Position numbers and translations under genes: made by a program. Positions 6,715 through 40,831 of a stretch of 40,831 nt of DNA are shown here, piece after piece. The number at the start of each line of letters is the position of its first letter. The first letter of the stretch is position 1. Source of the stretch: Nitrospirota bacterium. GTDB taxonomy: Bacteria > Nitrospirota > Thermodesulfovibrionia > Thermodesulfovibrionales > BMS3Bbin05. The notes beneath the pieces are model-generated. The model worked only from the letters and a program-made list of their open reading frames with translations, was not told the DNA's origin and did no database searches. The stretch spans positions 1,824,450 to 1,865,280 of the forward strand of contig CP070669.1 in the NCBI GenBank assembly GCA_020351835.1, written 5' to 3'.

Positions 6715-6717
6715 AGC

Positions 6718-9353: not shown

Positions 9354-9359
9354 GATCAT

Positions 9360-9365
9360 ATTATA
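9360..9365 (-). promoter_or_regulatory. Candidate -10 box for the zinc-ribbon gene
   Basis: On the minus strand the sequence reads TATAAT, then six bases, then ATG 9353. Transcription would begin at or one base before the start codon, giving a leaderless mRNA. No good -35 is seen at 16-18 bases; the dyad at 9385-9404 occupies that region, as expected for an activator-dependent promoter. Confidence 0.45.
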
Positions 9366-9384
9366 GCCGATAAGTGACCCCCAT

Positions 9385-9404
9385 TTTATGATATACATCA
9401 TAAA
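9385..9404. promoter_or_regulatory. Perfect dyad, Crp/Fnr-like operator candidate
   Basis: Two 8-base arms, TTTATGAT and ATCATAAA, form a perfect inverted repeat around the 4-base spacer ATAC. The core ATGAT-N4-ATCAT differs by one base per half site from the FNR consensus TTGAT-N4-ATCAA. The centre (9394.5) is about 41.5 bases upstream of the predicted zinc-ribbon mRNA start (9353) and about 55 upstream of the predicted gph start (9450). It lies in the divergent intergenic region, so one regulator could control both genes. Confidence 0.5.
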
Positions 9405-9436
9405 GGGTTTTGCCGCCAAATACCCGGTTTCTTTAT

Positions 9437-9442
9437 TATAAT
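9437..9442 (+). promoter_or_regulatory. Candidate -10 box for gph
   Basis: A perfect TATAAT lies seven bases before ATG 9450 and four before ATG 9447. There is no Shine-Dalgarno, so a leaderless transcript starting near ATG 9450 is plausible. The -35 region 17 bases upstream (CGCCAA) is poor. Confidence 0.4.
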
Positions 9443-9446
9443 TATC

Positions 9447-10082: not shown

Positions 10083-10088
10083 TATAAT
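10059..10088 (+). promoter_or_regulatory. Candidate promoter for the CDF exporter
   Basis: TTACCA (10059-10064), an 18-base spacer and a perfect TATAAT (10083-10088) overlap the end of gph. Predicted transcription would begin near 10095, about 29 bases before ATG 10124. That favours the ATG over the upstream TTG at 10103. Confidence 0.45.
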
Positions 10089-10123
10089 ATTCAAGTAGAC
10101 ACTTGCCCGAAGAGATTAAGACA

Positions 10124-10987
10124 ATGAAACCCGAAAAAAGACTTATACTGACACTTTTGATATCTCTTGCAATACTTGTTGCTGAAATTATTGGTGGAAT
10201 GATCAGTAATAGCCTGGCCCTGTTAAGTGACGCCGGACATGTTTTCACAGATTCACTTGCGCTTTCTTTAAGTCTAATAGCGTCCGTTATATCGAGAAAG
10301 GCGCCGGACGAAAAGGCAACGTTCGGGTACCAGAGAATAGGTCTTTTAGCTGCTATTATTAACGGGCTCAGTTTGCTCGGGATATCTGTCTATATCTTCC
10401 ACGAGAGCTATAACCGGTTCATGTCACCCCCTGAGATAAGGTCCTCGCTCATGCTCGTAGTAGCTTCTGCCGGACTGATAGGTAATATCGTTATGGCGTA
10501 TGTGCTCAGTGAGGGCCACAGTGACCTGAACATAAAGAGCGCCTGGCTTCATATAATAGGTGACCTTCTTGCTTCTATCGGAGTAATAGTCGCGGCTGTC
10601 ATAATCTATTTTACGGGATTCGTCATGGCGGATCCTATTGCAAGTATTGCTGTAGGGGGCCTGATCCTCATTGGAGGGCTCAGGGTTGTGAAAGAAGCCC
10701 TGGGGATATTTCTCGAAATGGTCCCGAAGGGCTATGATCTCAGGGAGATCCGGCGCTCTATCCTGGACATTAACGGTGTGATCGACATTCATGATGTTCA
10801 CCTTTGGTCGATATCTCATGGCAAACCTTCCTTTTCTGCTCATGTCTTAACCTCAGATCTTAGCCTGAGCGAGGTTGATACGATCAGAGGACGCATAGAG
10901 GGGCTCTTATCAGAGTTTGGGATAGACCACACCGTGCTACAGCTTGAATGCGGCAGATGCGAGAACGATCAAAACGCTCACCTGTGA
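10124..10987 (+). CDS. Cation diffusion facilitator, CzcD/ZitB-type zinc exporter
   Basis: Inner-membrane proton/divalent-metal antiporter, 287 residues from ATG 10124, with six hydrophobic segments. The transport site is the tetrahedral HxxxD pair of zinc-type CDFs: His39 and Asp43 in SDAGHVFTDS (with Asp36), and His143 and Asp147 in WLHIIGDLLAS. The TFGYQR block between segments is typical of CzcD. The C-terminal cytoplasmic domain (about 200-280) has the ferredoxin-like DIHDVHLWSIS with metal-binding His residues, and ends in a short Cys/His tail, LECGRCENDQNAHL, that may add metal sites. The reading frame also offers TTG 10103, but the ATG has better start context and lies downstream of a good TATAAT. 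Zinc is the most likely substrate; cadmium or cobalt are possible. Confidence 0.9.
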   Translation: MKPEKRLILTLLISLAILVAEIIGGMISNSLALLSDAGHVFTDSLALSLSLIASVISRKAPDEKATFGYQRIGLLAAIINGLSLLGISVYIFHESYNRFMSPPEIRSSLMLVVASAGLIGNIVMAYVLSEGHSDLNIKSAWLHIIGDLLASIGVIVAAVIIYFTGFVMADPIASIAVGGLILIGGLRVVKEALGIFLEMVPKGYDLREIRRSILDINGVIDIHDVHLWSISHGKPSFSAHVLTSDLSLSEVDTIRGRIEGLLSEFGIDHTVLQLECGRCENDQNAHL

Positions 10988-11115
10988 TAACATGCAGGAT
11001 CAGTCAGTCATATACGCGCTGCTTTATCAATATCCCGACTAGTCCATGTATCCATTTGTAATACATAATTTATTTTTTTATCAAATAGTTATATACTATC
11101 TAAACTTATAATTAC

Positions 11116-11127
11116 GAGGAGGCCTCC
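11116..11127 (+). promoter_or_regulatory. Strong Shine-Dalgarno of the MCP gene inside a 10-base palindrome
   Basis: GAGGAGG (11116-11122) precedes ATG 11135 and fixes the start. It is part of GGAGGCCTCC (11118-11127), a perfect palindrome, so the ribosome site could pair between two RNA molecules or bind a dimeric protein. A TATACT box at 11092-11097 is a weak promoter candidate in the otherwise AT-rich 147-base gap after the CDF gene. Confidence 0.5.
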
Positions 11128-11134
11128 ATATCAT

Positions 11135-13201
11135 ATGAAGAAGAGAAGGTTCGGGGTTAAGTTCAAGTTCACAGTGGTTTTTAGTGCTTTTATAGCCGTT
11201 GTTATGTTATTTGGCGCTTCCTATATGAATAAAAAGCAGAAGGACCTTATAACTTCTTTATCCTCGAAGAAAGGAAATAGCATTACTAATCTCATTGCCA
11301 GTGCAGCTCATTCGCATATTGAAATGGATGACATACGCTCGATAGACCTTCTTATTAAAAATGTCTTGTCTGATGATGATATTGCGTTCGTCTTTGTTAC
11401 AGGTCCTAATAATGAGTTGATCAGCTCTTTCAGGTCGGGCATGAACATCATTTCTGACGAGTTCCAGGCTTGGGGTATATCAGCTGACGATCCTAAGAGA
11501 TCCGTGAACAGCCTTATGAACGATGAAAGGATATTTTCATACGAACAACCTGTCAGTAGCTTTGTGAATGCAGGAAAGATAAAAATAGGGCTATTCAGAG
11601 ATAGAATGGGAAAAGAGGCAAGCGGACTTCTGTCATTAATGCTCATCATAACCGCAATAGTTGTCGTCACATTAGCCCTTATCTCACATTTCATGTTCAA
11701 AAAAATGGTATCTAACCCTATCGACAAGATCATTTTGGTGTCTAATTCCCTCGCAAACGGCAACCTTAAGGATGTAGTAGATATAAAGAACTCTGATGAG
11801 ATAGGGGATGTAGCCGGAGGCATCAACCTTCTGTCAACCAGCCTTAAGGATATCGTAACAGAAATGCGCCAGCTGATCGATGAACTTCAAGAGGCCGGTC
11901 ATACAGTTAACGGGCGGGCCAATGACGTTACGAACAGATGCAACGATCAGTTGTCTATGATAACAAAGATGATATCAATAATTGACAACAATACATCTTC
12001 TCTCAGGGAGCTTGCAGGCCAGACAAACGAGCTCAAGCAGTCATCTGAGGACACATCAGCTTCGATCATGGAGCTTGTATCCAGTTCATCAGAAATATCC
12101 CTTAATATGGATACTCTTGCGGGTGAGATAGATGAGATAAGCGGTGCCTTGCAGCAGATATCTAATGCCATCAATACACTGGTAGAAGTTGTCGAAATGG
12201 TCTCCGAGTCTACTGATGAGACGTCCTCATCAGCCCACGAGATCGATGCCAGCATTAAACAGATAGAGAACCTAACAAACGAATCCAGAGAGATAATTGA
12301 GGATATTAAGCGGAAGACCGAAAAAGAGGGTCTTGGCGCCATCGAGGAGACCATTGAAGGTATGAAGAAGATAAAGGATTCAGTGGAGATCACAGATGAG
12401 ATCATCTCGATCCTGGACTCTAAATCACTCGAAATAGACAAGATACTCCAGGTCATAGATGAGGTAACTGACAGGACCACGTTACTGTCACTTAATGCCG
12501 CCATCCTTGCTGCGCAGGCGGGTCAACACGGAAAATCCTTCTCTGTGGTCGCATCAGAGATAAAGACCCTTGCATCCGATACCTCTTCATCTACACAGGA
12601 AATTGGAGGGATCATAACGATGATACAGAAGGAGATAAAGACGGCGGTAAATAGCATAAGCCAGGGGATCGGCATGGTATCGAACGGTCTGAAGCTTGCC
12701 GAACAGGCAGGGGATATTTTTAACGGCATATCAGCAGGAACCAATGAAGCGTCGGAATACTCAGAGAGGATACATAGCGCCTTACAGGAACAGGCCAGTG
12801 GCATCAGCCTGGTCACAAAAACAGCTGAAAGCATAGCAGAAAGGGTCGGAGGTCTTTTTGTCTTCGTTAAAGAACAGAAGGATGCTATCGACAGGATGAT
12901 GTTATCAGTTGCCAATATACGTGAGGTTGCCCATCGCGTAAAGAGCTCAACGGACGAACAAAAGAGAGCAAGCACAGAGATTAGTGTAGCATCAGAAGAT
13001 GTTTCGTCCATGTCATCCGCCATAGCGATCGCCCTGAACGTTCTAAGCGATAAAAGCTCTGAACTTGTTGAAATGGTGGACAAAATAAGGTCTAGCGCTG
13101 AAGATAGCGTTAATGTTGCCGGAGACGTTTCATCCTCTATGGAACAGTTGTCTGGAAAAGCATCGTCATTGAGTGATGCTATCAGTAAGTTCAACATATA
13201 G
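11135..13201 (+). CDS. Methyl-accepting chemotaxis protein with non-canonical hairpin tip
   Basis: Membrane chemoreceptor, 688 residues. TM1 is about 10-30; a small periplasmic sensor domain follows to about 165; TM2 is about 165-190; a HAMP domain with NPIDKIILVSNSLANGNL follows; the rest is a long cytoplasmic coiled coil. The kinase-control tip around residue 454 reads LLSLNAAILAAQAGQHGKSF followed by SVVASEI. In canonical receptors this is NAAIEAARAGE(Q/H)GRGFAVVA, so the usual Glu and Arg are replaced by Leu and Gln, and AGE by AGQ. It should still bind CheA/CheW-type partners, but perhaps a separate array (inference). No che genes are nearby. A diguanylate cyclase follows downstream with its own promoter candidate. 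The ligand is unknown. Confidence 0.9.
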   Translation: MKKRRFGVKFKFTVVFSAFIAVVMLFGASYMNKKQKDLITSLSSKKGNSITNLIASAAHSHIEMDDIRSIDLLIKNVLSDDDIAFVFVTGPNNELISSFRSGMNIISDEFQAWGISADDPKRSVNSLMNDERIFSYEQPVSSFVNAGKIKIGLFRDRMGKEASGLLSLMLIITAIVVVTLALISHFMFKKMVSNPIDKIILVSNSLANGNLKDVVDIKNSDEIGDVAGGINLLSTSLKDIVTEMRQLIDELQEAGHTVNGRANDVTNRCNDQLSMITKMISIIDNNTSSLRELAGQTNELKQSSEDTSASIMELVSSSSEISLNMDTLAGEIDEISGALQQISNAINTLVEVVEMVSESTDETSSSAHEIDASIKQIENLTNESREIIEDIKRKTEKEGLGAIEETIEGMKKIKDSVEITDEIISILDSKSLEIDKILQVIDEVTDRTTLLSLNAAILAAQAGQHGKSFSVVASEIKTLASDTSSSTQEIGGIITMIQKEIKTAVNSISQGIGMVSNGLKLAEQAGDIFNGISAGTNEASEYSERIHSALQEQASGISLVTKTAESIAERVGGLFVFVKEQKDAIDRMMLSVANIREVAHRVKSSTDEQKRASTEISVASEDVSSMSSAIAIALNVLSDKSSELVEMVDKIRSSAEDSVNVAGDVSSSMEQLSGKASSLSDAISKFNI

Positions 13202-13269
13202 CATTTCATCACCTCTTTACCATTATCCTGTCCAGCAGTAACGAAAATATCTACCGATAATCTTGCTTT

Positions 13270-13298
13270 TTCCCATCACTAAGCTAGTATTATATAAT
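13270..13298 (+). promoter_or_regulatory. Candidate promoter for the PAS-GAF-GGDEF gene
   Basis: TTCCCA (13270-13275), a 17-base spacer and a perfect TATAAT (13293-13298) lie in the 123-base gap after the MCP gene. Transcription would begin near 13305, 20 bases before ATG 13325. Confidence 0.5.
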
Positions 13299-13324
13299 GA
13301 TAATCGTGGATCGAAGAAGATAAA

Positions 13325-14698
13325 ATGTTTTTTGGCAAAAAGACCACTGTCACTATCCCAAACCTGATCAGCTCCCCTTTGCTGATCATTGAGAATACGG
13401 GTGCGATCCATTCGGTCAACGCGGTGTTCTGTGAAATATTTTCTATAGATAAGGATGAGGTATTAAATAAGAACTATCACGAGATCAGGCAGCTAAAGCC
13501 GATCGAGAAGAATATTAATACATCCCTTATTCAGAGGCGACCTGAGAATCCGCGCCTAAGTTATCGTGATAAGCATTTTGAAGTATCAATAACTCCGCTC
13601 GAAGTTGACAGGGTTAACTGTGTTTCAGTGCATTTTTATGAGATAACACCTTTCCTCGAGATCGAAAGAGAGCTTCTTAAGAGAAACCGCGAACTGATGA
13701 TAATCAACACCCTGTCAGGTGCATTTATATCTTCTGAGAACATAGAGGAGGTCTTCAGTGCACTCCTGGAGAAGGTCCTGCTTATAACCGATTTTACCAC
13801 TGGGTGGATAATGCTTCGTGACGAAGCTGATTTCGAGGTCAAAAGCAGCCACGGCATATCGAAAGTGTTTCTCAAGGAGATGAATGAAGGGAAGATAGTC
13901 GATCTTTGTGACAATATTGCGAAGATAAATGATCCCCTGTACATATTCGAGGAAGATGAGATCGATGCTATCCCGGTCATAAAACGCGAGGGTATTGTCA
14001 TACTATCGGCAATACCAATTAAAGTAGGCAACAAGCTCAGGGGGATAATGTTCCTTGCAAGCCGCGTGAACAGGGAATTCGACTTCAATCTTGCCTCTAT
14101 ATTGTCACTTATCGGAAGTCAGTTCACACTGATAGTAGAGAAGATAGAGCTATTTGAGGAAACTCGCAGGTTGTCCATAACCGACAGCCTTACTGGATTG
14201 TTCAATTCCCGCCATTTCTATGAAGCCCTTGATAAGGAGGTAGCAAGAGCGGGAAGATACAGACAGATATTCTCCCTTGCTATTTTTGATATAGACGACT
14301 TTAAGGTAATGAACGATACTTACGGACACCAGGTAGGTGATGAGATACTGAGAAAGATCGCTGGTGTCATACTGAAGGAGTCCAGAGAGACGGATATTGT
14401 AGCCAGATATGGAGGGGAAGAGTTCGTTGTTATATTCCCGAATACCCCGAAGCATGACGCGCTTGCAGTTGCTGAAAGGATACTAAGGGGTGTAGAAAGT
14501 AGCTCACTGGTCCCTGATATAGATCCTCATATAAGAATAACAATAAGTGGTGGCATTGCTTCTTATCCTGAGGACGGAAGTTTTCCAAAAGACCTTCTCT
14601 ATAGGGCTGACATGGCAATGTATAAAGCTAAAAGCGCAGGAAAAAAACAGGTGGTATGTTATAATGTCACGCATGAAAAAGGTATTCAAAAGACCTGA
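13325..14698 (+). CDS. PAS-GAF diguanylate cyclase
   Basis: Soluble cyclic-di-GMP synthase of 457 residues. An N-terminal PAS-like domain (about 10-115, NLISSPLLIIENTGAIHSVN) leads through a helix (ERELLKRNREL) into a GAF domain (about 130-275). The C-terminal GGDEF domain (about 285-450) begins DSLTGLFNSRHFYEAL. The active-site motif is the functional variant GGEEF in ARYGGEEFVVIFP. RETD lies exactly five residues before it and is a standard RxxD inhibitory site, so product feedback is expected. No EAL or HD-GYP domain and no transmembrane segment are present. The 3' end overlaps the oxidoreductase beta-subunit gene by 35 bases, so the cyclase and that enzyme share a message. What the PAS and GAF domains sense is unknown. 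Confidence 0.93.
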   Translation: MFFGKKTTVTIPNLISSPLLIIENTGAIHSVNAVFCEIFSIDKDEVLNKNYHEIRQLKPIEKNINTSLIQRRPENPRLSYRDKHFEVSITPLEVDRVNCVSVHFYEITPFLEIERELLKRNRELMIINTLSGAFISSENIEEVFSALLEKVLLITDFTTGWIMLRDEADFEVKSSHGISKVFLKEMNEGKIVDLCDNIAKINDPLYIFEEDEIDAIPVIKREGIVILSAIPIKVGNKLRGIMFLASRVNREFDFNLASILSLIGSQFTLIVEKIELFEETRRLSITDSLTGLFNSRHFYEALDKEVARAGRYRQIFSLAIFDIDDFKVMNDTYGHQVGDEILRKIAGVILKESRETDIVARYGGEEFVVIFPNTPKHDALAVAERILRGVESSSLVPDIDPHIRITISGGIASYPEDGSFPKDLLYRADMAMYKAKSAGKKQVVCYNVTHEKGIQKT

Positions 14699-30748: not shown

Positions 30749-30841
30749 ATCTATCCTCCCTTACAATTCCTGTTAAATGGTCCTCTTAAAGTGGTTATTT
30801 TATCAAATATCACATCGGATTTTGTAAAAAAAGTTCATGGA

Positions 30842-30858
30842 TCTGCTTTAAAAGCAGA
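30842..30858. promoter_or_regulatory. 17-base palindrome between purC and the CHASE2 kinase
   Basis: TCTGCTTT, a central A, and AAAGCAGA form a perfect inverted repeat. It lies 94 bases upstream of purC and 119-135 bases upstream of ATG 30977 in the divergent gap 30749-30976. It is followed by TTGTTTCACG rather than a U-run, so it looks more like an operator than a terminator. The remainder of the gap holds no gene that I can support. Confidence 0.35.
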
Positions 30859-30940
30859 ATTGTTTCACGTGTTCGATTCTACAGGCCTGTTTAAACGCCA
30901 ATATAATGCATTAGAGACCTGCCGGATACCTGCATCATTC

Positions 30941-30969
30941 TTGCCTAAAAATCACTGCATTGATATAAT
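30941..30969 (+). promoter_or_regulatory. Candidate promoter for the CHASE2 kinase, implying a leaderless mRNA
   Basis: TTGCCT (30941-30946), a 17-base spacer and a perfect TATAAT (30964-30969) stand seven bases before ATG 30977. No Shine-Dalgarno precedes that ATG. Transcription would begin at about the start codon. This also argues against the upstream in-frame GTG 30791. Confidence 0.55.
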
Positions 30970-30976
30970 CACCAAT

Positions 30977-33535
30977 ATGAGATTACCGCGATTCGTTTCA
31001 ACGAACTGGTTCATAGGTTCTACGATAACGTCGATATTTCTTATTGCATATCTGATAGGCCTCTACCCGTTGGTTCTGGCCGAAAATAAAATGTATGACC
31101 TCATGTCCAGACTGGACTCCGGGAAGGGCTCATCACACGTCGTCCTGGTAGAGATAGATGAAAAGAGCATTGAGGACCTTGGTCCGTGGCCATGGCCCAG
31201 AAAGTACTTTTCGGATGCACTTGGCAACCTTTCGGACAAAGGGTCTAAGGTAATATCACTTCATGTTCCTTTTACATCACCTGACATAAATCCCGGACTT
31301 GATAAGATTCGTGAGGTCAGGAAGGATATCGCAAAAAAAAGGAAGCGTTCAAAAAACAATATCTATTCTGCTATATATGCTGACATCAGGAAGGCTGAGA
31401 GGGAGTCTGATCATGACACAATGCTAACCAGGGCTGCAAAAGCCGCCGGCAATGTGCTTCTATCGCTAAATGTTCGTATCGGCGAGCCCTCCGGGAGCAA
31501 TGATAAAAAGATTCCTGTATATTTAATCAGGAACTCAACTATATTTGATAACGGGCAGCTTTCAGGCTCAGATAATAAGATTACTGTAAAAAATCCATTT
31601 GCTTTCAATAGGGATCGCTACATATTTGCGTCCACCATATCTCCACCTTTTCAGGATCTTGCTTCGAATGCAAAAGGCATGGGGCACATTTCGTATCCGG
31701 AGGACAAGGATAATGTGATAAGGAATGCAGCGTTGTTCATATCATACAAAGGAAGACTTTACCCTTCGCTTGCTTTACAGTCCGCAGTAAGGTATCTCGG
31801 TCAGGATGAGAAGCATGTAAAGCAAATCATCGGGAAAAGAGGTTTCAGTGGGATCCAGATAAAGAACCTTAGGGTCCCGACCAGTGAAAGGTTCGAAATG
31901 CTAATTTCGTTCCAGTCCAGCAGGGATGTACACCAAAGATACTCTTTCAGCGATCTGGTAAATGATGTGATCCCTCCGGATATTTTTAAAGGGAAAATAG
32001 TTATTATTGGTCCGTCTTCACCTGACTTAGGCTCACTCCACATTACCTCCGTGGGAGAGGAAATGTCCGAGATTAGCATAGCGGCAAACATAATTGATAA
32101 TATCCTGAACGAAACGGCCATTATGCGACCGTTATGGGCCTATATTATTGAAGCTTCAGTACTATTGGCCCTGGGATTGTTCGTTGCTTTAATGATACCT
32201 CGCCTCAGGAAAAGGAACGGGTCCATTCTCCTTGGTATTTTCGTTTTGACGTGGTCTGCGATCTGCCTGTTCCTGTTTGTAGGGTTCGGCATATGGCTAA
32301 AGCCAGTCACTGTCATTATGCTTTCCATAGTTGCATTTGCAGCAGTTACAATTAACAGGATGATTTCGTCAGGTGTTCTGTCTGATGCTGAAAGCATTGA
32401 GTCCTACAAGATGCTGGGGTTATCTTTGCAAGGACAGGGAATGCTGGATATGGCCCTTGAAAAGTTCATGAAATGCCCTGTAAAGGATGATTCCGTTAAG
32501 AGCTTGCTCTATAATCTTGGACTTGATTTTGAACGAAAGAGGATGTTCAATAAGGCTGTTGCTGTATATGAGCATATTCTTAAGGGAGGGAAATACAAGG
32601 ACTCACAGGAAAGGATAGTCAGATTGAGGCCGGCAGAGGAAGTAACTGCTATAGGCACACAATTCCTGTCTGATGAGCGAACCATGATACTTGAGGATAC
32701 GGTCACCAGGCCTACACTGGGCAGATATGAGGTAGTTGAAGAACTGGGACGGGGAGCGATGGGGACTGTTTACCTTGGAAAGGACCCGAAGATCAACAGG
32801 GATGTTGCGATCAAGACCCTCAAGTTCGATCATTCAAATGAAGAGGAGCTGAGCGATTTCAAGGAACGCTTTTTTCGCGAAGCGGAGGCAGCCGGCAATC
32901 TGGCCCATCCCAATATTATGACCATTTACGATATTGGCGAAGAACATGATATGGCTTATATTGCCATGGAACTTCTAAAGGGCCGTGAGTTAAGTGAATT
33001 TACAAGTCATGAGAATTTGCTTCCGATAGAAGAAGTACTTAATATTATATCGTCAGTGGCTGAAGCTCTTGATTATGCTCACTCTAACGGTGTTGTCCAT
33101 AGGGACATAAAGCCGGCCAACATAATGATATTAGGGGACGGTACTGTTAAAGTAGCGGACTTTGGTATCGCCGCTCTGTCTGCTGCTGCTGAAACGCATA
33201 CTGGAACCCAAACCGTTGTTGGGACCCCCAACTATATGTCTCCCGAGCAGATATCGGGTAAAAAGGTCGACGGACGATCCGATCTGTTCTCCCTAGGATG
33301 TGTACTATACGAGATGTTGACCGGTGAGAAACCTTTCAAAGGGGATAACCTTGGGGAACTTCTTCGTAATATTCAGAAAGGCGATTACCATTCACCTGAG
33401 GATGTAAGACCGGACCTTCCAAAATGCTGCGTTGAAATAACGAACAAGCTATTGTCAAAAGCTCTTAAGAAGAGATATAAGAACGGAAAAGAGATCGCAG
33501 ATGACATCAGGAAGTGCATCCAGAAGGTAAACTGA
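30977..33535 (+). CDS. CHASE2-domain transmembrane Ser/Thr protein kinase with TPR linker
   Basis: Eukaryotic-type kinase of 852 residues from ATG 30977. TM1 is near 12-34; a periplasmic CHASE2 sensor follows (VVLVEIDEKSIEDLGPWPWPR is its typical opening); three hydrophobic segments lie about 385-460; TPR-like repeats occupy about 470-535 (LDMALEKFMK...FNKAVAVYEHIL); a Thr-rich linker and the kinase domain (about 580-850) complete it. Catalytic features are intact: GRGAMGTVYLG loop, Lys613 in VAIK, HRDIKPAN with Asp710, DFG Asp728, and GTPNYMSPEQ. The topology places the sensor outside and the kinase inside. The frame continues upstream to GTG 30791, but that part lacks coding character. It is convergent with an FHA-domain gene, a likely substrate or reader. 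A second CHASE2 protein, an adenylate cyclase, lies 4 kb away. Confidence 0.92.
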   Translation: MRLPRFVSTNWFIGSTITSIFLIAYLIGLYPLVLAENKMYDLMSRLDSGKGSSHVVLVEIDEKSIEDLGPWPWPRKYFSDALGNLSDKGSKVISLHVPFTSPDINPGLDKIREVRKDIAKKRKRSKNNIYSAIYADIRKAERESDHDTMLTRAAKAAGNVLLSLNVRIGEPSGSNDKKIPVYLIRNSTIFDNGQLSGSDNKITVKNPFAFNRDRYIFASTISPPFQDLASNAKGMGHISYPEDKDNVIRNAALFISYKGRLYPSLALQSAVRYLGQDEKHVKQIIGKRGFSGIQIKNLRVPTSERFEMLISFQSSRDVHQRYSFSDLVNDVIPPDIFKGKIVIIGPSSPDLGSLHITSVGEEMSEISIAANIIDNILNETAIMRPLWAYIIEASVLLALGLFVALMIPRLRKRNGSILLGIFVLTWSAICLFLFVGFGIWLKPVTVIMLSIVAFAAVTINRMISSGVLSDAESIESYKMLGLSLQGQGMLDMALEKFMKCPVKDDSVKSLLYNLGLDFERKRMFNKAVAVYEHILKGGKYKDSQERIVRLRPAEEVTAIGTQFLSDERTMILEDTVTRPTLGRYEVVEELGRGAMGTVYLGKDPKINRDVAIKTLKFDHSNEEELSDFKERFFREAEAAGNLAHPNIMTIYDIGEEHDMAYIAMELLKGRELSEFTSHENLLPIEEVLNIISSVAEALDYAHSNGVVHRDIKPANIMILGDGTVKVADFGIAALSAAAETHTGTQTVVGTPNYMSPEQISGKKVDGRSDLFSLGCVLYEMLTGEKPFKGDNLGELLRNIQKGDYHSPEDVRPDLPKCCVEITNKLLSKALKKRYKNGKEIADDIRKCIQKVN

Positions 33536-33550
33536 CCTGTCAGGTAAGGA

Positions 33551-33916
33551 TTATTTCTTTTTTACCCTTATGGTCTCGTCCATAAACTCTGGCATTAGCT
33601 TTTTAGGCTCTTTCTTCTCGCCCTTCTCTGTCTCTTTGAACACCAGGGTATATTTGCCAACACCTATCTTGTCATTATTATTAAGGCCGGAACGCCAATT
33701 GACCATTGCACCATTAACAAAGGTTCCGTTAGTGCTCTTTATGTCTTCTACAAAAAAGACTGAACCATGCTTAATAATCTTAGCATGCTCACGGGAAACA
33801 GACGGGTTCTTCAAATAGATATCACATTTTGATTCACGTCCGATGACCGTTATCTTCTTATCAAGAGGAACTTCATCAACAGCCTTTCCACCTATCTGAA
33901 CTATTACTTTCGCCAT
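33551..33916 (-). CDS. FHA-domain protein with C-terminal Thr tail
   Basis: A 121-residue cytoplasmic phosphothreonine-binding protein. The FHA core spans about 20-90 with the conserved ITVIGRESKCDIYLKNPSVSREHAKI (Gly-Arg, Ser and His ligands) and STNGTFVNG loop. A charged linker (EKGEKKEPKK) leads to the tail MPEFMDETIRVKKK, where the Thr after DE could be a kinase site; GarA-like FHA proteins bind their own phosphorylated tail (family knowledge; here inference). The start ATG 33916 follows GGGAGGT; the frame stays open to 33979 but without coding features. It is convergent with the CHASE2 Ser/Thr kinase, 15 bases apart, making kinase-FHA partnership the simplest reading. A perfect TATAAT stands 28 bases upstream. 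Confidence 0.92.
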   Translation of the reverse strand: MAKVIVQIGGKAVDEVPLDKKITVIGRESKCDIYLKNPSVSREHAKIIKHGSVFFVEDIKSTNGTFVNGAMVNWRSGLNNNDKIGVGKYTLVFKETEKGEKKEPKKLMPEFMDETIRVKKK

Positions 33917-33944
33917 AACTACCTCCCGGTGATATTTGATGATA

Positions 33945-33950
33945 TTATAA
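33945..33950 (-). promoter_or_regulatory. Candidate -10 box for the FHA gene
   Basis: On the minus strand a perfect TATAAT lies 28 bases before ATG 33916, leaving a short leader that includes the GGGAGGT ribosome site. The -35 position falls in the terminator U-run of the upstream small gene, so the two elements are packed together. Confidence 0.45.
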
Positions 33951-33963
33951 TGAATGACACTGT

Positions 33964-33990
33964 AAAAAAAAAGGAGCACTAGCTCCTTTT
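33964..33990 (-). terminator. Intrinsic terminator of the small Cys-motif gene
   Basis: Read on the minus strand: AAAAGGAGC, a 4-base loop TAGT, GCTCCTTTT (9-base perfect stem), then an unbroken run of nine T in total. It lies 24 bases after the stop of the 34015-34287 gene. A stem ending in a T-run is a textbook Rho-independent terminator. On the plus strand only four T follow the stem, so termination there is weaker. Confidence 0.85.
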
Positions 33991-34014
33991 AAAATAAATC
34001 CCGGGCAATTTGTA

Positions 34015-34287
34015 TCAGTTATTACACAGGTACTTTATTATGACTTCAGCTTTTTCGATATCATCCGGGAAAATTTCTCTCATCTGCTGATCGACCTCGG
34101 CCATTCCACTTTCATCCACTGGGTGGTAACCTTGCCTGATCTTCTTATTGACCATGTACCTCGCACACCTTTCCTTGTCCTTTACACAGTACTCGACCTT
34201 ATACTGCATCCTCTCCTGAGCAGTGGGCAATCTGTTCATTCTGTTCGTGAAAAATACGCATACATCTGTTTTTTCACATATACTCAT
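34015..34287 (-). CDS. Small cytoplasmic protein with two Cys pairs, function unknown
   Basis: A 90-residue protein with no signal peptide or membrane segment. Cysteines are arranged as CEKTDVC near the N-terminus and YCVKDKERCARYMV in the middle, plus one near the C-terminus. Short proteins with this C...CxFF...YC...CARYMV pattern are scattered in anaerobic bacteria as hypothetical proteins; four Cys in two pairs suggest a metal or Fe-S site, but I cannot name a function. It has its own promoter (TTGACA-17-TAATTT) and its own terminator, so it is a single-gene unit. A weak AGGGGG precedes ATG 34287. It lies between the FHA gene and the envelope operon, all on the minus strand. Confidence 0.75.
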   Translation of the reverse strand: MSICEKTDVCVFFTNRMNRLPTAQERMQYKVEYCVKDKERCARYMVNKKIRQGYHPVDESGMAEVDQQMREIFPDDIEKAEVIIKYLCNN

Positions 34288-34347
34288 TTCGGCCCCCTTT
34301 TATTTGATGTTTACACTGACATCCTGCTTTTCCCTTTCCCTGGCTAC

Positions 34348-34376
34348 AAATTAACACTTTTTAGTTGCATTGTCAA
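34348..34376 (-). promoter_or_regulatory. Promoter of the small Cys-motif gene
   Basis: On the minus strand: perfect -35 TTGACA (34376-34371), a 17-base spacer, and an extended -10, TG-T-TAATTT (TAATTT at 34353-34348). Predicted mRNA start is near 34341, about 54 bases before ATG 34287. The rest of the gap 34288-34557 is AT-rich, contains the stem-loop at 34463-34500, and has no gene that I can support. Confidence 0.65.
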
Positions 34377-34462
34377 GTAATTTATTAATTATTTAATTTA
34401 TGTATTACATATCTATATGCAGAATAATTCGAACTATGCCTACCTTATTGTTATTTCAGGCT

Positions 34463-34500
34463 TTTTAGCCAAAGGTGTGCGAGCACACCTCGGGCTAAAA
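34463..34500. repeat. Long two-part stem-loop, not a standard terminator
   Basis: Outer arms TTTTAGCC and GGCTAAAA (8 bases) enclose inner arms AGGTGTG and CACACCT (7 bases) around a CGAG tetraloop, with two-base internal loops AA and CG. The order is T-run, stem, A-run, the reverse of a bidirectional terminator. It sits 58 bases downstream of the stop of the envelope operon's last gene. It could be a transcript-end stabiliser, a REP-like unit or a protein-binding site. Confidence 0.6.
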
Positions 34501-34557
34501 TATTATTGCTGGGATCCGGCCAATCAAGTTTGGGATGAACGGGTCTATGAAATTTTC

Positions 34558-35688
34558 TTACTTCACCTTCAAATTAAGTTTGCCGGGTGATACTCCCTGG
34601 ACCTCAAGGTCGAAGCCCTTAAACTTCATTTCATCTAGTATCTCCGCAAGCCTGATCGAATCACCGTTATAAGTGATATTGAGAACAGCTGTAGGAGCAT
34701 CAAAGCTTCTCTGAAATACTTCCGACACACCTCTCAGTGCCCCTATCTCGTCCTTAACGCTCCTGAGGACGGTGAAATTGACCCCGCTAAGCACTATCTC
34801 TATTTCATTGCCCCGTATCTTTTCTTTGTTCCATTTCTTTACGATCTTCCAGAAAATATCGCTTGCTGCGCTCTTACTCGTTCTTTCCAGTGCCTTTCTC
34901 TGGGCCGAGTCTGCAACCGCATCCGTAGCTGCTTTGGACTGACTGGATATGGCATAAAGTGACGCATTATCGGTCTTAAGGGCCCTGAGCGATATGCTAG
35001 CCTTACTTGCATAAAGCTGCCCTCTGATGCTTTCGACATCACCGATCGAAGCCGTTCCAACAACCACTACCTCAGCACCTGACCTCAGGCCAATTTTGGC
35101 TGCCGCTAGCTCATCTCCCTCGGCAATCTTCCTAAGCTCGTCCTTCCTTATATTTTCAATGGCCATGGCCTGGTCGATAAGCGAGAACTCCTTTTCTACA
35201 AATATACTGCTTACGGCATGTTCTGCATGCTTAGTAGGTATTACATCCTTGCCTCTTACTTCAAGTACTATTACCATAAGACGCGGCTTATCCATTTCAT
35301 GGTATATTAGCGTGGCATCGTCTATCAAACTGCTCTTTGACACATCCGCCTCTATATCTATCAGATAATTGTTACCGCTTTGCTTCTCGCTTATTATTTC
35401 ATACCTGTGCACATAACCGTCCGCTTTAGATATTATCCTGTCCCTGACGAGATCATAGTTCTCAACGACTGATTCTGATAGCACGTGAGAACCTACCTGG
35501 TCTACTGCATTTCTTTTCGCGTCCTCAAGAGCTTCTTTCTTTGCCGCTCCCACGTCAGCCGAGTAGATCACAGCACTCCCCGAAGCCATCACCGTCTTTA
35601 TTTCGCTCTTCTTTGCCTCTGCCTGCAACACCATCACAGGAATAAGCACAAATAAGAACATAATTATAAATACTCTCTTAAACTCCAT
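34558..35688 (-). CDS. FlgT/CsgG-like secreted periplasmic protein
   Basis: A 376-residue exported protein. A signal peptide (about 1-25, hydrophobic VFIIMFLFVLIPVMVLQAEA) is followed by a LPP20/FlgT-N-like alpha-beta domain (about 30-115, VMASGSAVIYSADVGAAKKEALEDAKRNAVDQ). A CsgG/FlgT-middle-like domain (about 140-280) has SGAEVVVVGTASIG then LYASKASISLRALKTDN, and a C-terminal alpha-beta domain (about 300-376) has the pattern LSGVNFTVLRSVKDEI. FlgT stabilises flagellar outer rings in Vibrio, but no flagellar gene is here, so a flagellar role is not implied. GGAGGTGG precedes ATG 35688. It is the last gene of the envelope operon, 25 bases after the CHASE2 adenylate cyclase. Family assignment is by visual pattern only. 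Confidence 0.8.
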   Translation of the reverse strand: MEFKRVFIIMFLFVLIPVMVLQAEAKKSEIKTVMASGSAVIYSADVGAAKKEALEDAKRNAVDQVGSHVLSESVVENYDLVRDRIISKADGYVHRYEIISEKQSGNNYLIDIEADVSKSSLIDDATLIYHEMDKPRLMVIVLEVRGKDVIPTKHAEHAVSSIFVEKEFSLIDQAMAIENIRKDELRKIAEGDELAAAKIGLRSGAEVVVVGTASIGDVESIRGQLYASKASISLRALKTDNASLYAISSQSKAATDAVADSAQRKALERTSKSAASDIFWKIVKKWNKEKIRGNEIEIVLSGVNFTVLRSVKDEIGALRGVSEVFQRSFDAPTAVLNITYNGDSIRLAEILDEMKFKGFDLEVQGVSPGKLNLKVK

Positions 35689-35713
35689 CTTCCACCTCCA
35701 TTACATATATTGG

Positions 35714-37819
35714 TTATTTGGTAGTCATCTCAAAAACGCCATCCCACTTATCTGTTGGCGGTGATTCAATAAGCTCCCGGCATCGTCTCACGTACAGAGC
35801 GGATGGTCCGTCATCAGGTTCAATTAAAAGAACATCTTGGAACAGGTCCAGAGCATTCACCCAGTCCCTTTCTCTATATGCTTTAATAGCTTCGCCATAT
35901 TTTTCAAGGAATACCGGTCTTTCTTCAGATGATTTAGATATAAGCTCATATATCCTTACTGGCTGGTGTTTCCCTATTACCCTGACAAGGTCAAGCTCTC
36001 TGAAATTGAAATCACTACTTGCGGCTTCCATAGTGTACTCACTAACGATGATCTTAGTGCTATAGATCTTGTTAAGGGACTCGAGCCTTGAACCAAGATT
36101 TACGCCATCTCCCATCACCGTATAATCAAATATCATTTCCGAACCCATATTGCCTACTACCATAGTACCTGTATTGATGCCGATACCAACTTCTATTATC
36201 GGTTTACCTTCTTTTCGCCATTTCCCATGAAGAGATACCAGCTGACGTATCATATCGAGGGCTGTCGCGCAAGCCATGGACGCATGACGGGTCATCTCTA
36301 CCGGGGCACCGTAGAATGCCATTATGGCATCTCCCATATATTTATCCAGCACCCCATTATGCTCGAATATTACCTTTGTCATTGCTGTGTGAAATTCGTT
36401 CAGCAGTTCTACAACATCGGAAGGGTCCATTTTTTCAGATATTGCCGTAAAATCCCTCGCATCAATAAAAAGAACGGAGATATCCTCCTTGTTACCACCC
36501 AGTTTCATTAGTGCCGGGTCCTCGAGAAGCTTCTCAATTACCTGAGGTGAAACATAATGTCCAAAGGCCTGGCGGATCCTAACCTTATCTCTAAGAGCTT
36601 GCATCCTGTGATAAGCCACACCTCCGAAATAGGTGAGCAGTACTATCCCCTCATATGACACTATCTCAATAAAATAGTCGAACTTAATGAAAACAAGATA
36701 TGATATCATCCCTGTAGCAGTGAACAGGACCACGCATAGCAGGAACGCTACAACAGGCCTTATGTTAAGGACCACAAACAGAACGGTCGTGATAATGCTT
36801 ATCACTATCATAAACCCGACTATTCTGGCCCTGCCCGGCGTCCTTATATAGTTCTGCTCAAGTATAGTGTTAATTGCATGAGCATATACCTCTACTCCGG
36901 GCATACCCATCCCGGACTGTTTTATGATCTCCTTCGTTTCGAACTTAACTACTTCAGAGCTCTTTGTCCTGAACGGGGTCAGAAATGAGTCATGATATGC
37001 CGGATGAACATTCCCTATCAGTATCACTTTATCTTTTACCTTCTTATTATCGAAATTGCCGGTCATCACATCACTGAACGAGACCTGATCGAAAGCGCCT
37101 GGCGGCCCCACATAGTTCACAAGCATCTTTCCCTCAGGATAAGGTATCTCTATGCTGCCCATTTTAAAGACATCCGTGGCACCAAGGTCTATTTCAGGGA
37201 TCTCGTCAGGATATATGATCAGTCTCGCTGTCTCTACAGCAAGGGAGAGGACAGGTTCAAGATGACCTGTTACCTCGTCCACTTCAAGGCTCACAAGAGG
37301 TATCCTGCGCAATATGTTATCCTTGTCAACAAGATGGTTTATAAATCCCTCCCCTACCTCTCCATCTCTGAACTTCTCTAGCGGAACTACCTGATGTCCC
37401 TGGGTTATATACCTCGAAAGTACGACGTTTCCGGAATCATAAATAGCCCTTGCCAGAACATTATCTTCTCCATCAGCATTAAATCCCGGCTTTGACAGGT
37501 CCATGTCCATAACGATAAGGTCAGCACCGGCAGCTGTTAGGTTCTGCAGTGCTTTAGCATAATAGGTGCGAGGCCACTGACTTATTTTTCGGTTAAGGTA
37601 TCTAACGCTCTTTTCATCTATGGTTACTATCAGGATGGAATCATTAGTGACCAGCTCGCCTCTCAAACTAAACCTGAGGTCACGTGACATTAGCTCCAGG
37701 CGTTCAAGGGTACCTGACTGATTCAGGACCAGCACAAACGTTAACACGACCGCACCAATGATAAGGCCGGCAATGTATCTCTTCTCTAGCAATGCTACTA
37801 ACCTTTCAGTGATAATCAT
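35714..37819 (-). CDS. CHASE2-domain adenylate cyclase (class III)
   Basis: Membrane cyclase of 701 residues. TM1 is about 15-33; a periplasmic CHASE2 sensor covers about 40-330 (SILIVTIDEKSVRYL opening, KDKVILIGN closing); three hydrophobic segments lie about 338-410; the cyclase domain is about 440-610; a TPR-like tail (YGEAIKAYRERDWVNALDLF) follows. Catalytic residues are complete: metal Asp453 in FIDARDFTAISE and Asp497 in DKYMGDAIMAF, exactly 44 apart; Lys493 and the Asp of FDYTVMGDG specify ATP; NLGSRLE holds the transition-state Asn/Arg. The product should be cyclic AMP. ATG 37819 overlaps the LPP20-like gene (ATGA), so sensor and periplasmic protein are coupled. The same CHASE2 layout is found in the Ser/Thr kinase at 30977. 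Confidence 0.95.
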   Translation of the reverse strand: MIITERLVALLEKRYIAGLIIGAVVLTFVLVLNQSGTLERLELMSRDLRFSLRGELVTNDSILIVTIDEKSVRYLNRKISQWPRTYYAKALQNLTAAGADLIVMDMDLSKPGFNADGEDNVLARAIYDSGNVVLSRYITQGHQVVPLEKFRDGEVGEGFINHLVDKDNILRRIPLVSLEVDEVTGHLEPVLSLAVETARLIIYPDEIPEIDLGATDVFKMGSIEIPYPEGKMLVNYVGPPGAFDQVSFSDVMTGNFDNKKVKDKVILIGNVHPAYHDSFLTPFRTKSSEVVKFETKEIIKQSGMGMPGVEVYAHAINTILEQNYIRTPGRARIVGFMIVISIITTVLFVVLNIRPVVAFLLCVVLFTATGMISYLVFIKFDYFIEIVSYEGIVLLTYFGGVAYHRMQALRDKVRIRQAFGHYVSPQVIEKLLEDPALMKLGGNKEDISVLFIDARDFTAISEKMDPSDVVELLNEFHTAMTKVIFEHNGVLDKYMGDAIMAFYGAPVEMTRHASMACATALDMIRQLVSLHGKWRKEGKPIIEVGIGINTGTMVVGNMGSEMIFDYTVMGDGVNLGSRLESLNKIYSTKIIVSEYTMEAASSDFNFRELDLVRVIGKHQPVRIYELISKSSEERPVFLEKYGEAIKAYRERDWVNALDLFQDVLLIEPDDGPSALYVRRCRELIESPPTDKWDGVFEMTTK

Positions 37820-39183
37820 CTTAAGCGTTCGTAATGCGCTATCAGAGGATTGAGCGGGCTATCTATACTTCCCTCAGTACCACCTATGGATGAGTCAGTA
37901 ATAATTATAACCCTGCTCTCCTTGAACAGTTTTGACAGATCTTTGTCCGATTCGATCTTTTTTGCATCAGAACCGCTTATTACTACATTAGCCTTTAATG
38001 GTCCGTCACTCCTTACACCTTTGACCTTCAGCGGATTGTTTCCCTGGCGTCTTTTTCGCCTCTTCTTATTTTCATGGTTTTCAGCAACTAATGGACCGCC
38101 TGATGGCATGAAGGTCTCATCGCTGGACGCAAGAAGAGCGTACTCTGTAGATATCGCGTTTATATACAATGGATTAAGACCGACCCTTTCCGTATTCGTT
38201 TCAGGAACACCGGTGGTATAACCGACGACCCCTCGTTTTATAAATGATGCCTCATCCACCATCTCGACCGAATAAATCTGCCTTCCTGTATTATCCAAAA
38301 CCATTGGGAACAGGGCTGTTCTCAGGCCCGTGCCCCTTGCATCTATCACGATTCCGGTTATCCCTTCATCAGCTTTGTCACTCCCTCTCCCGGGCATAAC
38401 CTTTTTCTTCTTTACAACCTTGCTATATATCTCTACCCCCAGTCCCTTGATACCTGTAAGCGGGACCTTTATATTTACCCTGTATGGCCTATTGGCTTCC
38501 TCGCTTTCGATAGATGCCGACCTGACAATGCCCTCTATTCTGTAGAACAGCTCCTTATCTTTACTGAGAAGCCCCTTCAACTGTTCCTCTGCATCCACTC
38601 TTATGCCATTTATCATTTCCAGGGCATTAGCCTGTGCGTCAATTACGGCCGCCCTCCTGGCCAATAGTTCAGCTTCCTTCCCTTCCTTGTCCGAGGGCCA
38701 CTCTCCAACCCCGTATGATATCAAGAACCCGTCCTGCCAGTTGATGGTTCCATTGGGAAATTCCTCAACAAGCGGCTTTAATCCGGTATATACCTCTCTA
38801 TCATCCTCTGTAAGAGAATATTTTTCTATCAGCTCAGAAGGGATCTCAACGAATGAACGTATGTATACAAAGTACGCCCCATCCTTTTCTCCTTCGCTCA
38901 ATATATCATAAGAAAGTGTTCCTTCAAGATCTGACCTGACCTCTCTTATATTGGGTATCATCTTTACTGATACGGAAGCTCCCAGGCCTTTCTCTATTGC
39001 ATCTCTTTTAGCCAATATCAGAGCCACTCTTTTTGCCACTGAAACGGTAGTCTTCACAGGAGCTATCCCCTCCCCCACTATCTCGACACGCACGGTCTCC
39101 TCAGCTGATCCAATAGACGGTGTTTGAAAAAAGGCAAAGAACATTAAAAGCAAGCTTGCCACAAAAGAGTTATTAAGTTTCAT
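37816..39183 (-). CDS. LPP20/FlgT-like secreted protein with basic linker
   Basis: A 455-residue exported protein starting at ATG 39183, preceded by GGAGGG. Signal peptide about 1-28 (SFVASLLLMFFAFFQTPSIGSA). Two related alpha-beta domains are suggested: an N-terminal one (VEIVGEGIAPVKTTVSVAKR...AKRDAIEKGLG) and a second (about 150-250) with LARRAAVIDAQANALEMING, the helix pattern of LPP20-type domains. The next part, GITGIVIDARGTGLRTALFP, resembles the domain that follows LPP20 in large uncharacterised envelope proteins. A strikingly basic stretch, NKKRRKRRQG, lies near residue 370. The C-terminus (KANVVISGSDAKKIESD) may be another small domain. The frame continues 15 codons upstream of ATG 39183, but without signal character. 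It is coupled to the CHASE2 cyclase by a four-base overlap. Confidence 0.8.
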   Translation of the reverse strand: MKLNNSFVASLLLMFFAFFQTPSIGSAEETVRVEIVGEGIAPVKTTVSVAKRVALILAKRDAIEKGLGASVSVKMIPNIREVRSDLEGTLSYDILSEGEKDGAYFVYIRSFVEIPSELIEKYSLTEDDREVYTGLKPLVEEFPNGTINWQDGFLISYGVGEWPSDKEGKEAELLARRAAVIDAQANALEMINGIRVDAEEQLKGLLSKDKELFYRIEGIVRSASIESEEANRPYRVNIKVPLTGIKGLGVEIYSKVVKKKKVMPGRGSDKADEGITGIVIDARGTGLRTALFPMVLDNTGRQIYSVEMVDEASFIKRGVVGYTTGVPETNTERVGLNPLYINAISTEYALLASSDETFMPSGGPLVAENHENKKRRKRRQGNNPLKVKGVRSDGPLKANVVISGSDAKKIESDKDLSKLFKESRVIIITDSSIGGTEGSIDSPLNPLIAHYERLR

Positions 39184-39205
39184 AAAGAACCCTCCAGAAC
39201 AGGTC

Positions 39206-40039
39206 TTAGAACGTATAAAAAACGGCAAGTGTAACGCCGTGAGTAATATCCCTCGAGGTTATAGCCTCTGTCCGTCCCGGTGCACGACCCGTGAACTCGA
39301 ACATCTGATACCGGTAGCCTAGCTGTACAAGCACGTTCTCGATAGCCTGGTACGTAACATTAATCTCTGTATTGAAACCCAGCTGACCCTGCGGAAGGAT
39401 ATCCTCCGTAACACCGTTCTCATTGGTTATTTTCATATCCATCATAGGGTATGATATGCCGGCCTGTCCGCTAAGAACGACCTTATCCATGACGGGATAT
39501 GCTGCTCCAACACCAAACGTCGGAACATGTGCATGGGCATCAACTATATACCTGTCCACCTGAGTCCCCATCAGCGTATATGTCATATCAAGTTTCAGCT
39601 CCATCTGCTGATATTTATATCCGAAAAATGCCTTGAACATCCCGTTCAAAGCATAGCTGACAGCAAGGTCATAGTCTTGTCGGTCAAGTCTGGCGGTCCC
39701 TCTGGGGTTCATGGCCCCGGCTGTCCCCGCCCAGTCCTGATCAAAGCTGCTCAATACCATAGGGGCGAAACTCACCGATAGTTTTCCGTCATCAGTTCTG
39801 TATCCTAACAGGGGGCCAACCATATATCCACTGCCGATGTCTCTTTTTGCCTCGAATTGCACCCTGTTAACCAGGAATGCAACAGCAATGTCCTTTTCAA
39901 GCCAGTCCAGAATACCCGAATCCCAGAAAGAGTAATATCCCTTTACCCCGACAAAATAGTCACCGGCATCTGAATTCAACGGGAGGACAATGATAAGCGC
40001 AATAAGAACAATGAATAACACAAGTATGAACCTTCTCAT
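39206..40039 (-). CDS. Small outer-membrane beta-barrel protein
   Basis: A 277-residue exported protein. Signal peptide about 1-25 (MRRFILVLFIVLIALIIVLP...SDAGD). The mature part has alternating hydrophobic/polar strands ending in aromatic residues (YFVGVKGYYSFW, GYMVGPLLGYR, MFKAFFGYKYQQM, VLVQLGYRYQMFEF), closing with GVTLAVFYTF, whose terminal Phe is the usual outer-membrane insertion signal. Eight to twelve strands are likely; no OmpA peptidoglycan domain follows. AAGGAG precedes ATG 40039; a GTG at 40054 contains that ribosome site and is less likely. It lies 52 bases after the CsgG-like lipoprotein and 22 before the LPP20-like gene. Function unknown; a structural or porin role is possible. 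Confidence 0.8.
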   Translation of the reverse strand: MRRFILVLFIVLIALIIVLPLNSDAGDYFVGVKGYYSFWDSGILDWLEKDIAVAFLVNRVQFEAKRDIGSGYMVGPLLGYRTDDGKLSVSFAPMVLSSFDQDWAGTAGAMNPRGTARLDRQDYDLAVSYALNGMFKAFFGYKYQQMELKLDMTYTLMGTQVDRYIVDAHAHVPTFGVGAAYPVMDKVVLSGQAGISYPMMDMKITNENGVTEDILPQGQLGFNTEINVTYQAIENVLVQLGYRYQMFEFTGRAPGRTEAITSRDITHGVTLAVFYTF

Positions 40040-40091
40040 AGACTGCTCCTTCACGATCTTGTATTTATATCAATACTATGCAACTCCATTA

Positions 40092-40831
40092 CTACAGGGT
40101 CATAGGCAAAGCCATAGCAAGGCTCGCAAGGTTATTCCTGGCCCTCTCATACCCCGGATCATAATTTAGTGCCGCTTCAAAATTTGACCTTGCTTTATCT
40201 ATCAGGTCCTTTGCGAGATCCTTCTTCCCCTTGGCCTTAAGGTCTTCAGCCTCATGAAGTACCATCTCACCGGCATAATTGCTTAGGGAAGCATAAAGTG
40301 ATGTTGTCTCGATATTCTTTTCTATTTCATCTCTCTCTGAATCCGTAAGAGTTGCCCCCAGGTACTCTGTCATCTTTATGACGAGTTGCTTTTCCAGTTC
40401 AAAGAACCGGTCAAGCCTTCCGGTGACGGATGATGCACCAAGAAGTGCACCGCTTTCAACGGAGTATATTTTAGCTTCCATAACAAGTTTACCGTTCATG
40501 ACCATATAAGCGCCTGCAAGCGTGAAGCGTGCAGCTACGATCTTTCCCATCTCTACGGCATCGTCCTCTTCTACAAGTCCTAGATGTTGTATCTTCTGTT
40601 GCTCCAGGATATCCTCGAGCCTTTCCCAGCTTATGATATTGAACAACCCGATGGATTCGAGATCGGTCATTATCATCGATGGTATCCCGAACTGCCATGG
40701 GTCGTATTCTGATGCGACCGATTTGGCAGTGGTATTTTTAAAGTTAAGGACCATAAGAGCGACTCGCTCTTCCCGAGGAATATCCCTGAGAACCTTTCCG
40801 CTGGAAGTCGTACCTGTGCTCTTACAACCTG
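40092..40831 (-). CDS. CsgG-like lipoprotein with C-terminal TPR, N-terminus beyond window
   Basis: The frame is open to the window edge. Its first visible residues, GCKSTGTTSSGK, are a lipobox-type GC (Cys codon at 40824-40826), so only the signal peptide is missing and the ATG at 40754 is internal. The CsgG-type core follows: VALMVLNFKNTT, PSMIMTDLES, ISWERLEDILEQQK and VEMGKIVAARFTLAGAYMV, matching proteins whose fold resembles the curli secretion pore subunit. A linker leads to a TPR-like helix pair (ARSNFEAALNYDPGYERARNNLA) at the C-terminus. CsgG relatives without curli genes are common and mostly uncharacterised; whether this one forms a pore is unknown. It is the first visible gene of the operon with the barrel, LPP20-like, cyclase and FlgT-like genes. 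Confidence 0.82.
   Translation of the reverse strand, partial: GCKSTGTTSSGKVLRDIPREERVALMVLNFKNTTAKSVASEYDPWQFGIPSMIMTDLESIGLFNIISWERLEDILEQQKIQHLGLVEEDDAVEMGKIVAARFTLAGAYMVMNGKLVMEAKIYSVESGALLGASSVTGRLDRFFELEKQLVIKMTEYLGATLTDSERDEIEKNIETTSLYASLSNYAGEMVLHEAEDLKAKGKKDLAKDLIDKARSNFEAALNYDPGYERARNNLASLAMALPMTL

Follow-up and report, generated by a model that had tools for sequence, protein, structure and literature searches.

A CHASE2 Ser/Thr kinase and a CHASE2 adenylate cyclase side by side in a Nitrospirota genome: a case for two separate sensor modules

Introduction

CHASE2 proteins typically have one N-terminal transmembrane helix, an ectodomain, three further transmembrane helices and a cytoplasmic output domain, and Zhulin et al. 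are said to have reported in 2003 that the domain occurs on kinases and on cyclases. CHASE2-bearing kinases and cyclases have long been known, as the accessible part of PMC2176072 indicates. The cyanobacterial Ser/Thr kinases treated there join CHASE2 to a Ser/Thr kinase domain, as does one of the two proteins studied here; a link to PP2C, FHA or a cyclase is not described for them in that part of the paper. In Sinorhizobium meliloti, the CHASE2 cyclases CyaK and CyaD1/CyaD2 require the outer-membrane barrel NsrA, according to the available sections of PMC7529298 and PMC13001267. Our locus would likewise set an inner-membrane CHASE2 cyclase beside an outer-membrane barrel, the tie between them being a common operon. 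The partners differ, however: they are FlgP/FlgT-like proteins, a CsgG-like protein and a small OmpA-like barrel. A Magnetospirillum operon resembles this arrangement in that a non-enzyme gene, mtxA, precedes a CHASE2 cyclase gene (PMC4439547, in the excerpt at hand).

Two proteins of our locus, here called FlgTb and FlgTa, also recall the FlgP basal disk and the FlgT ring of flagella. In that family an insertion in the SHS2-type region goes with ring formation, as far as the available text of PMC12222027 tells; FlgTb and FlgTa share the SHS2-type domain, and FlgTb has the ring-insert region. Unlike their flagellar counterparts, these genes are tied to a CHASE2 cyclase in a genome without FlhA. 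Finally, the TOMM kinase/cyclase fusion (TIGR03903) also brings a Ser/Thr kinase and a nucleotide cyclase into one system, but as a single fused protein, and the window (the whole stretch of 40,831 nucleotides analysed here) scores far below the TIGR03903 curated cut-off. The open-licence literature that we searched yielded neither a kinase–PP2C–FHA–cyclase neighbourhood nor a FlgP/FlgT-like cyclase operon. The domains of the locus are ordinary; their arrangement is new.

Results

Two CHASE2 proteins of different output

The genome is a single contig of 2.29 Mb, 96.9% complete, and holds four CHASE2 genes: the kinase and the cyclase of the window and two further cyclases (C1:674 and C1:587783). 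The coordinates originally given were confirmed, the kinase and cyclase genes lying less than 7 kb apart on opposite strands with an FHA gene between them:

30977..33535, + strand: CHASE2–TPR-like–Ser/Thr kinase, 852 aa (Pfam, alignment, model)
33551..33979, - strand: FHA protein (Pfam FHA 2e-19), likely ATG start at 33916
35714..37819, - strand: CHASE2–class III adenylate cyclase, 701 aa (Pfam, alignment, model)

CHASE2 (PF05226) scored 171.8 and 165.2 bits in the two proteins against a Pfam cut-off of 26.3. Structure models bore out in both the claimed membrane plan of one transmembrane helix, a CHASE2 ectodomain, three transmembrane helices and a cytoplasmic enzyme, and residue alignment upheld the claim that the catalytic residues are intact in each. 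The TPR-like repeats ascribed to both fared less evenly: they are weakly visible in the kinase, as two Pfam hits below cut-off between the membrane and the kinase domain, whereas Pfam gave no hit in the cyclase, where TPR-like helices appear in the structure model only.

The kinase ORF can be read as 30791-33535 from a GTG or from the ATG at 30977; we preferred the latter because it agrees with the relatives. Pfam matched CHASE2 (2.6e-50) and Pkinase (4.8e-60), and K613, E635, D710, N715 and D728 are all present. With its VAIK lysine, HRD aspartate and DFG aspartate the protein is predicted to be an active Hanks-type Ser/Thr kinase. We assumed the customary roles for these positions, as for the catalytic positions of the cyclase. 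The model of the kinase ectodomain has the same membrane plan as that of the cyclase.

In the cyclase, Pfam matched CHASE2 (2.7e-48) and Guanylate_cyc (1.3e-25). Its model (mean pLDDT 88.9) shows a helix at 8-35, the ectodomain at about 60-325, three helices at 330-350, 355-380 and 386-419, the cyclase domain at 440-629 and C-terminal helices at 637-685. All class III residues are present, namely the metal aspartates D453 and D497, the K493/T567 pair, from which we take the enzyme to prefer ATP, and the N574/R578 pair. Residue 456 (36452-36454, - strand), next to the first metal aspartate, is Asp, as in one of the 33 other rows; 32 of the 34 aligned CHASE2 cyclases have Gly. Judged from the alignment, this exchange might reduce activity.

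Other cyclases showed peculiarities of their own. One of the same clade (L220:7496-9424, G149) differs in the alignment at each of the six catalytic positions, yet its CHASE2 domain and its FlgTb neighbours are still there; this would suit retention of the sensor by itself, or a slipped alignment. At L223:1753-5932 (G337), a tandem pair of CHASE2 cyclases of different clades stands behind an FlgTb gene, and at L211:5388-8816 and L036:7315-10805 a different CHASE2 cyclase clade adjoins an M48 peptidase gene.

Elsewhere in the window (2176-14698), the other signalling genes code for a 1394-aa GAF/PAS histidine kinase, a methyl-accepting chemotaxis protein and a GGDEF protein. Rfam families and tRNAs were sought across the window, and none was found.

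The cyclase operon and its ring-type proteins

The cyclase gene is the fourth of five on one strand, in the order CsgG-like, OmpA-like barrel, FlgTb, cyclase, FlgTa:

40092..40831, - strand: CsgG-like protein with a lipobox-like Cys; its start lies beyond the window end
39206..40054, - strand: OmpA-like outer-membrane barrel (OmpA_membrane 3.1e-05, above cut-off)
37816..39228, - strand: FlgTb, periplasmic, with an FlgP-type (SHS2) domain and a Tp0624-like domain (profile matches)
34558..35688, - strand: FlgTa, with a signal-peptide-like start and an FlgT_N domain, LipL46-like; last gene of the operon (Pfam, NCBIfam)

The last 4 bp of the FlgTb gene are also the first 4 of the cyclase gene, and FlgTa follows the cyclase after 25 bp. 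FlgTa matched FlgT_N at 7.6e-11 in Pfam, its resemblance to LipL46 being below cut-off. By profile, FlgTb matched the FlgP ring lipoproteins 8z5n and 9yds and the closely similar 9yfg and 9yec (best 2.3e-06), the unnamed lipoprotein 9hmf (3.7e-15) and Treponema Tp0624 (5jir, 1.2e-14). Its alignment with FlgP runs without a large gap across the region of the hairpin insert, and its domain is of the SHS2 type. FHIPEP/FlhA was sought in this 96.9% complete genome without a match, the four control genomes being positive; since FlhA is absent, FlgTb and FlgTa are not part of a flagellum. A gene for a methyl-accepting chemotaxis protein is nevertheless present.

The clade of the window cyclase comprises 8 distinct loci; every one has FlgTb-like neighbours and 6 have FlgTa too, while the sister cyclase clade had FlgTb/FlgTa-like neighbours in none of the three loci read. 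On this evidence of gene neighbourhoods, the cyclase operon is kept across Nitrospirota families. In G307 a TPR protein and one of GNA1162-like/beta-helix type are also encoded in the cluster. Four genomes (G307, G225, G337 and G149) have the cyclase operon and no kinase match; the other species of the genus (G001) has neither kinase nor cyclase. The window cyclase matched 360 plasmid records, and in the three examined the neighbour was an FecR protein (two) or a ShlB-type barrel (one). Taken with the barrel-dependent cyclases of S. meliloti, these neighbours make the operon fit a known theme with a different partner. The genome has seven cNMP-binding domains.

Just beyond the window end, upstream of the operon, lie a C_GCAxxG_C_C redox protein gene and a multiheme-cytochrome-like gene (L034:17578-19998).

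The kinase, the FHA gene and their relatives

A full-length kinase orthologue was found in 29 of 395 genomes of the phylum, at 31 loci. The window kinase is 39-48% identical to these and qualifies as a full-length CHASE2–TPR–kinase orthologue. We collected 46 CHASE2-kinase loci, from Nitrospirota, from named Elusimicrobiota and Proteobacteria records and from others; L059 and L216 are one record (leaving 45 distinct) and some flanks were short. An FHA gene lay within 5 kb in 27 of the 46 and a PP2C gene in 25 of the 46, the typical order being kinase–PP2C–FHA on one strand. The window FHA gene is a relative of the FHA gene in these operons. Here, by contrast with that order, FHA is convergent with the kinase and PP2C_2 is absent: sought in the whole genome, which is 96.9% complete and has both Ser/Thr kinase and FHA, it gave no match. 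The window thus holds an incomplete form of the module, which may work like a kinase–PP2C–FHA module without being a complete member.

Two segments of the kinase deserve mention:

31286..31414, + strand: helical insert within the ectodomain (residues ~104-146), which the window cyclase lacks (alignment, model)
32396..32626, + strand: TPR-like cytoplasmic segment, residues 474-550 (conservation over 31 rows)

Over the 31 rows, median identity was 61% in the TPR-like segment (77 residues), 58% in the kinase domain and 30% in the ectodomain. The TPR-like segment is thus conserved like the kinase domain and the ectodomain is not, a pattern suggesting that what has stayed the same is a partner in the cytoplasm and not the ligand. 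When plasmids were searched with a kinase ectodomain, a single weak and partial match came up.

Between the cyclase operon and the kinase we noted the following:

34015..34287, - strand: ORF of 90 aa containing several Cys, placed after the cyclase operon and before FHA
33969..33990, - strand: hairpin and T run resembling an intrinsic terminator, immediately before the site listed next
33966-33939, - strand: promoter-like site of FHA (prediction)

Downstream of FlgTa come, in this order, a long inverted repeat at about 34500-34460 (read by eye), the 90-aa ORF, the terminator-like hairpin, the promoter-like site and FHA. The ORF, which is flanked by promoter-like and terminator-like sites, matched no family in an NCBIfam search. 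An SD-like GGGAGGT stands immediately 5' of the likely FHA start, and the kinase and FHA genes meet tail to tail, 15 bp apart. As counts, the sites of the region are not striking in themselves (7 terminator-like sites against 7.9 in shuffles, 31 promoter-like against 19.6). Because the hairpin, the terminator and the promoter-like site precede FHA and the kinase faces it tail to tail, FHA is probably a separate transcription unit on the cyclase's strand, as far as such predicted sites tell.

Comparison of the two CHASE2 domains

The ectodomains of the window pair are 25% identical, the other CHASE2 pairs of the genome 21-27%, so none stands higher. A quick tree of 109 CHASE2 domains sorted by output enzyme: the label changed 8 times, compared with 39.6 times in shuffles. 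For a careful tree we kept 47 of the 109 domains, leaving out L064, L066, L067 and the rows whose output has no name; it placed the window kinase in a 12-row kinase set (support 99/98) and the window cyclase in a 6-row cyclase set (97/90). A tree uniting the two was rejected (delta lnL 99.6, p-AU 6e-16). Monophyly of all kinase CHASE2s was weakly supported in the careful tree (78/60), and in the larger quick tree the long-branch kinases L064 and L066 fell among cyclases; the window kinase falls outside every starred set of the quick tree but inside one of the careful tree.

The insert of the window kinase measures about 41 residues, with predicted long helices, against 4 in the window cyclase. 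Inserts of at least 29 residues occur in 42 of 44 kinase CHASE2s and 5 of 59 cyclase CHASE2s; 54 of the 59 cyclases have at most 4. We considered the insert as a mark of kinase-paired cyclases and rejected it: two of the five carriers (L058 and L205) are in kinase operons and the other three (L245, L247 and L249) have no kinase, FHA or PP2C nearby in the stretches read. With three of five away from kinases, the insert is a lead only. The L269 stretch is a 3.7-kb contig.

As for the fold of CHASE2, a profile search of solved structures found none related (one chance-level hit at 0.64), Foldseek gave no match with E <0.001, and the best VIA-align Z was 3.9; these results argue neither for a novel fold nor for a familiar one.

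Cyclases near CHASE2 kinases

A cyclase lay within 5 kb of the CHASE2 kinase in 3 of the 30 other Nitrospirota loci, against 0.5 expected (P 0.013), and in 4 of 31 with the window included, against 0.53 expected (P 0.0017). Without the window, P was 0.038 at 3 kb, 0.040 at 8 kb, 0.064 at 10 kb, 0.0037 at 12 kb and 0.016 at 20 kb; this statistic uses rounded genome sizes, assumes uniform placement and was computed at six distances. The cyclases found near CHASE2 kinases elsewhere are of other clades and non-orthologous to that of the window; in G381:C86, for instance, a CHASE2 cyclase of another clade lies within 5 kb of the kinase on the opposite strand. This kinase together with this cyclase clade occurred within 10 kb in no other locus examined. 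In G241:C12 some 10 kb separates the two, which stand in a different order, a case counted only from 12 kb.

The original prediction had reckoned that distant clades, combined with an adjacency found in this genome only, would speak against it. The clades proved distant; the adjacency is not confined to this genome, inasmuch as a CHASE2 kinase beside a cyclase recurs, but with different, non-orthologous cyclases. Recurrence in three of 30 Nitrospirota loci and in a betaproteobacterial operon lends some support to an association of kinase, FHA and cyclase. The kinase/FHA module and cyclases are fairly read as being in loose, repeated association, realised differently each time.

Discussion

The account that we favour, with moderate confidence, is that two separate CHASE2 modules stand side by side, one a kinase/FHA sensor and the other a sensor linking an envelope ring to cAMP. 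In the first, the kinase ectodomain would sense the periplasmic state, the TPR-like segment would dock partners, and the kinase would phosphorylate threonines bound by the convergent FHA protein. In the second, the FlgP/FlgT-like proteins FlgTb and FlgTa, to judge from their sequences, would build or monitor a non-flagellar structure at the outer membrane, to which the CsgG-like protein and the barrel would also belong; the CHASE2 domain of the cyclase would read this structure, and cAMP would act on CRP-type receptors, which may be some of the seven cNMP-binding proteins. The cues of the two modules probably differ. Any coupling would be cytoplasmic, from kinase through FHA to cyclase, without a shared ligand, and such cross-talk through FHA is plausible. 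Against this account, the FHA gene shares the cyclase's strand, cyclases near kinases exceed expectation, and the kinase module lacks a PP2C_2 match here and so is incomplete.

The same core of two modules is compatible with plain chance, that is, with unrelated sensors adjacent without a functional link, and to this we give a substantial minority share of our belief. We saw the layout in none of the other genomes examined, the neighbouring cyclases elsewhere come from other clades, and by hand arithmetic the chance that one of the genome's five cyclases falls within 5 kb of a given locus is about 2%. The recurrence of cyclases near CHASE2 kinases speaks the other way; as it is above expectation, the neighbourhood is possibly not neutral.

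That recurrence counts in favour of a single relay, a proposal that we hold to be unlikely: either the cyclase or a partner would be phosphorylated by the kinase and then bound by FHA, which would set the cAMP output. Besides the proximity at 5 kb, it draws on same-strand operons in G241:C71 (L205; kinase, PP2C, FHA–kinase, FHA, CHASE2 cyclase) and in a betaproteobacterial contig (L058; kinase–PP2C–FHA–CHASE2 cyclase), and on FHA–cyclase fusions that lie upstream of the kinase, at 188 bp and on the same strand in G163:C56 (L213) and, with a PP2C gene, at 5.3 kb in a deltaproteobacterial contig (L060). Yet a cyclase is missing from the 5-kb surroundings of the kinase at 40 of the 45 distinct loci, the cyclases concerned are non-orthologous, the proximity gives P 0.064 at 10 kb, and in the window FHA and cyclase are predicted to be in separate transcription units.

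More speculative, and in our view improbable, is the idea that the ring is the receiver of the CHASE2 cyclase, that kinase and FHA tune it, and that the kinase-like insert of cyclases in related operons lets the sensors pair. Least of all do we credit the original proposal that both domains read one extracytoplasmic cue, into phosphorylation and into cAMP: divergent CHASE2 domains could in principle bind the same ligand, and the two share a domain family, a membrane plan and close genes, but their distant clades, the AU rejection, the insert in the kinase ectodomain only and the independent distribution of kinase and cyclase among genomes leave it without support, and as far as ancestry tells we reject it.

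CHASE2 ligands are known in very few cases, and with two separate modules as the preferred account the locus offers two leads. One is a cyclase whose gene is linked, in a non-flagellar setting, to those of ring-type proteins of the outer membrane; were the ring its receiver and the kinase and FHA to tune it, this would be a two-input envelope checkpoint. The other is the recurring kinase–PP2C–FHA(–cyclase) neighbourhood, which would connect protein phosphorylation with cAMP.
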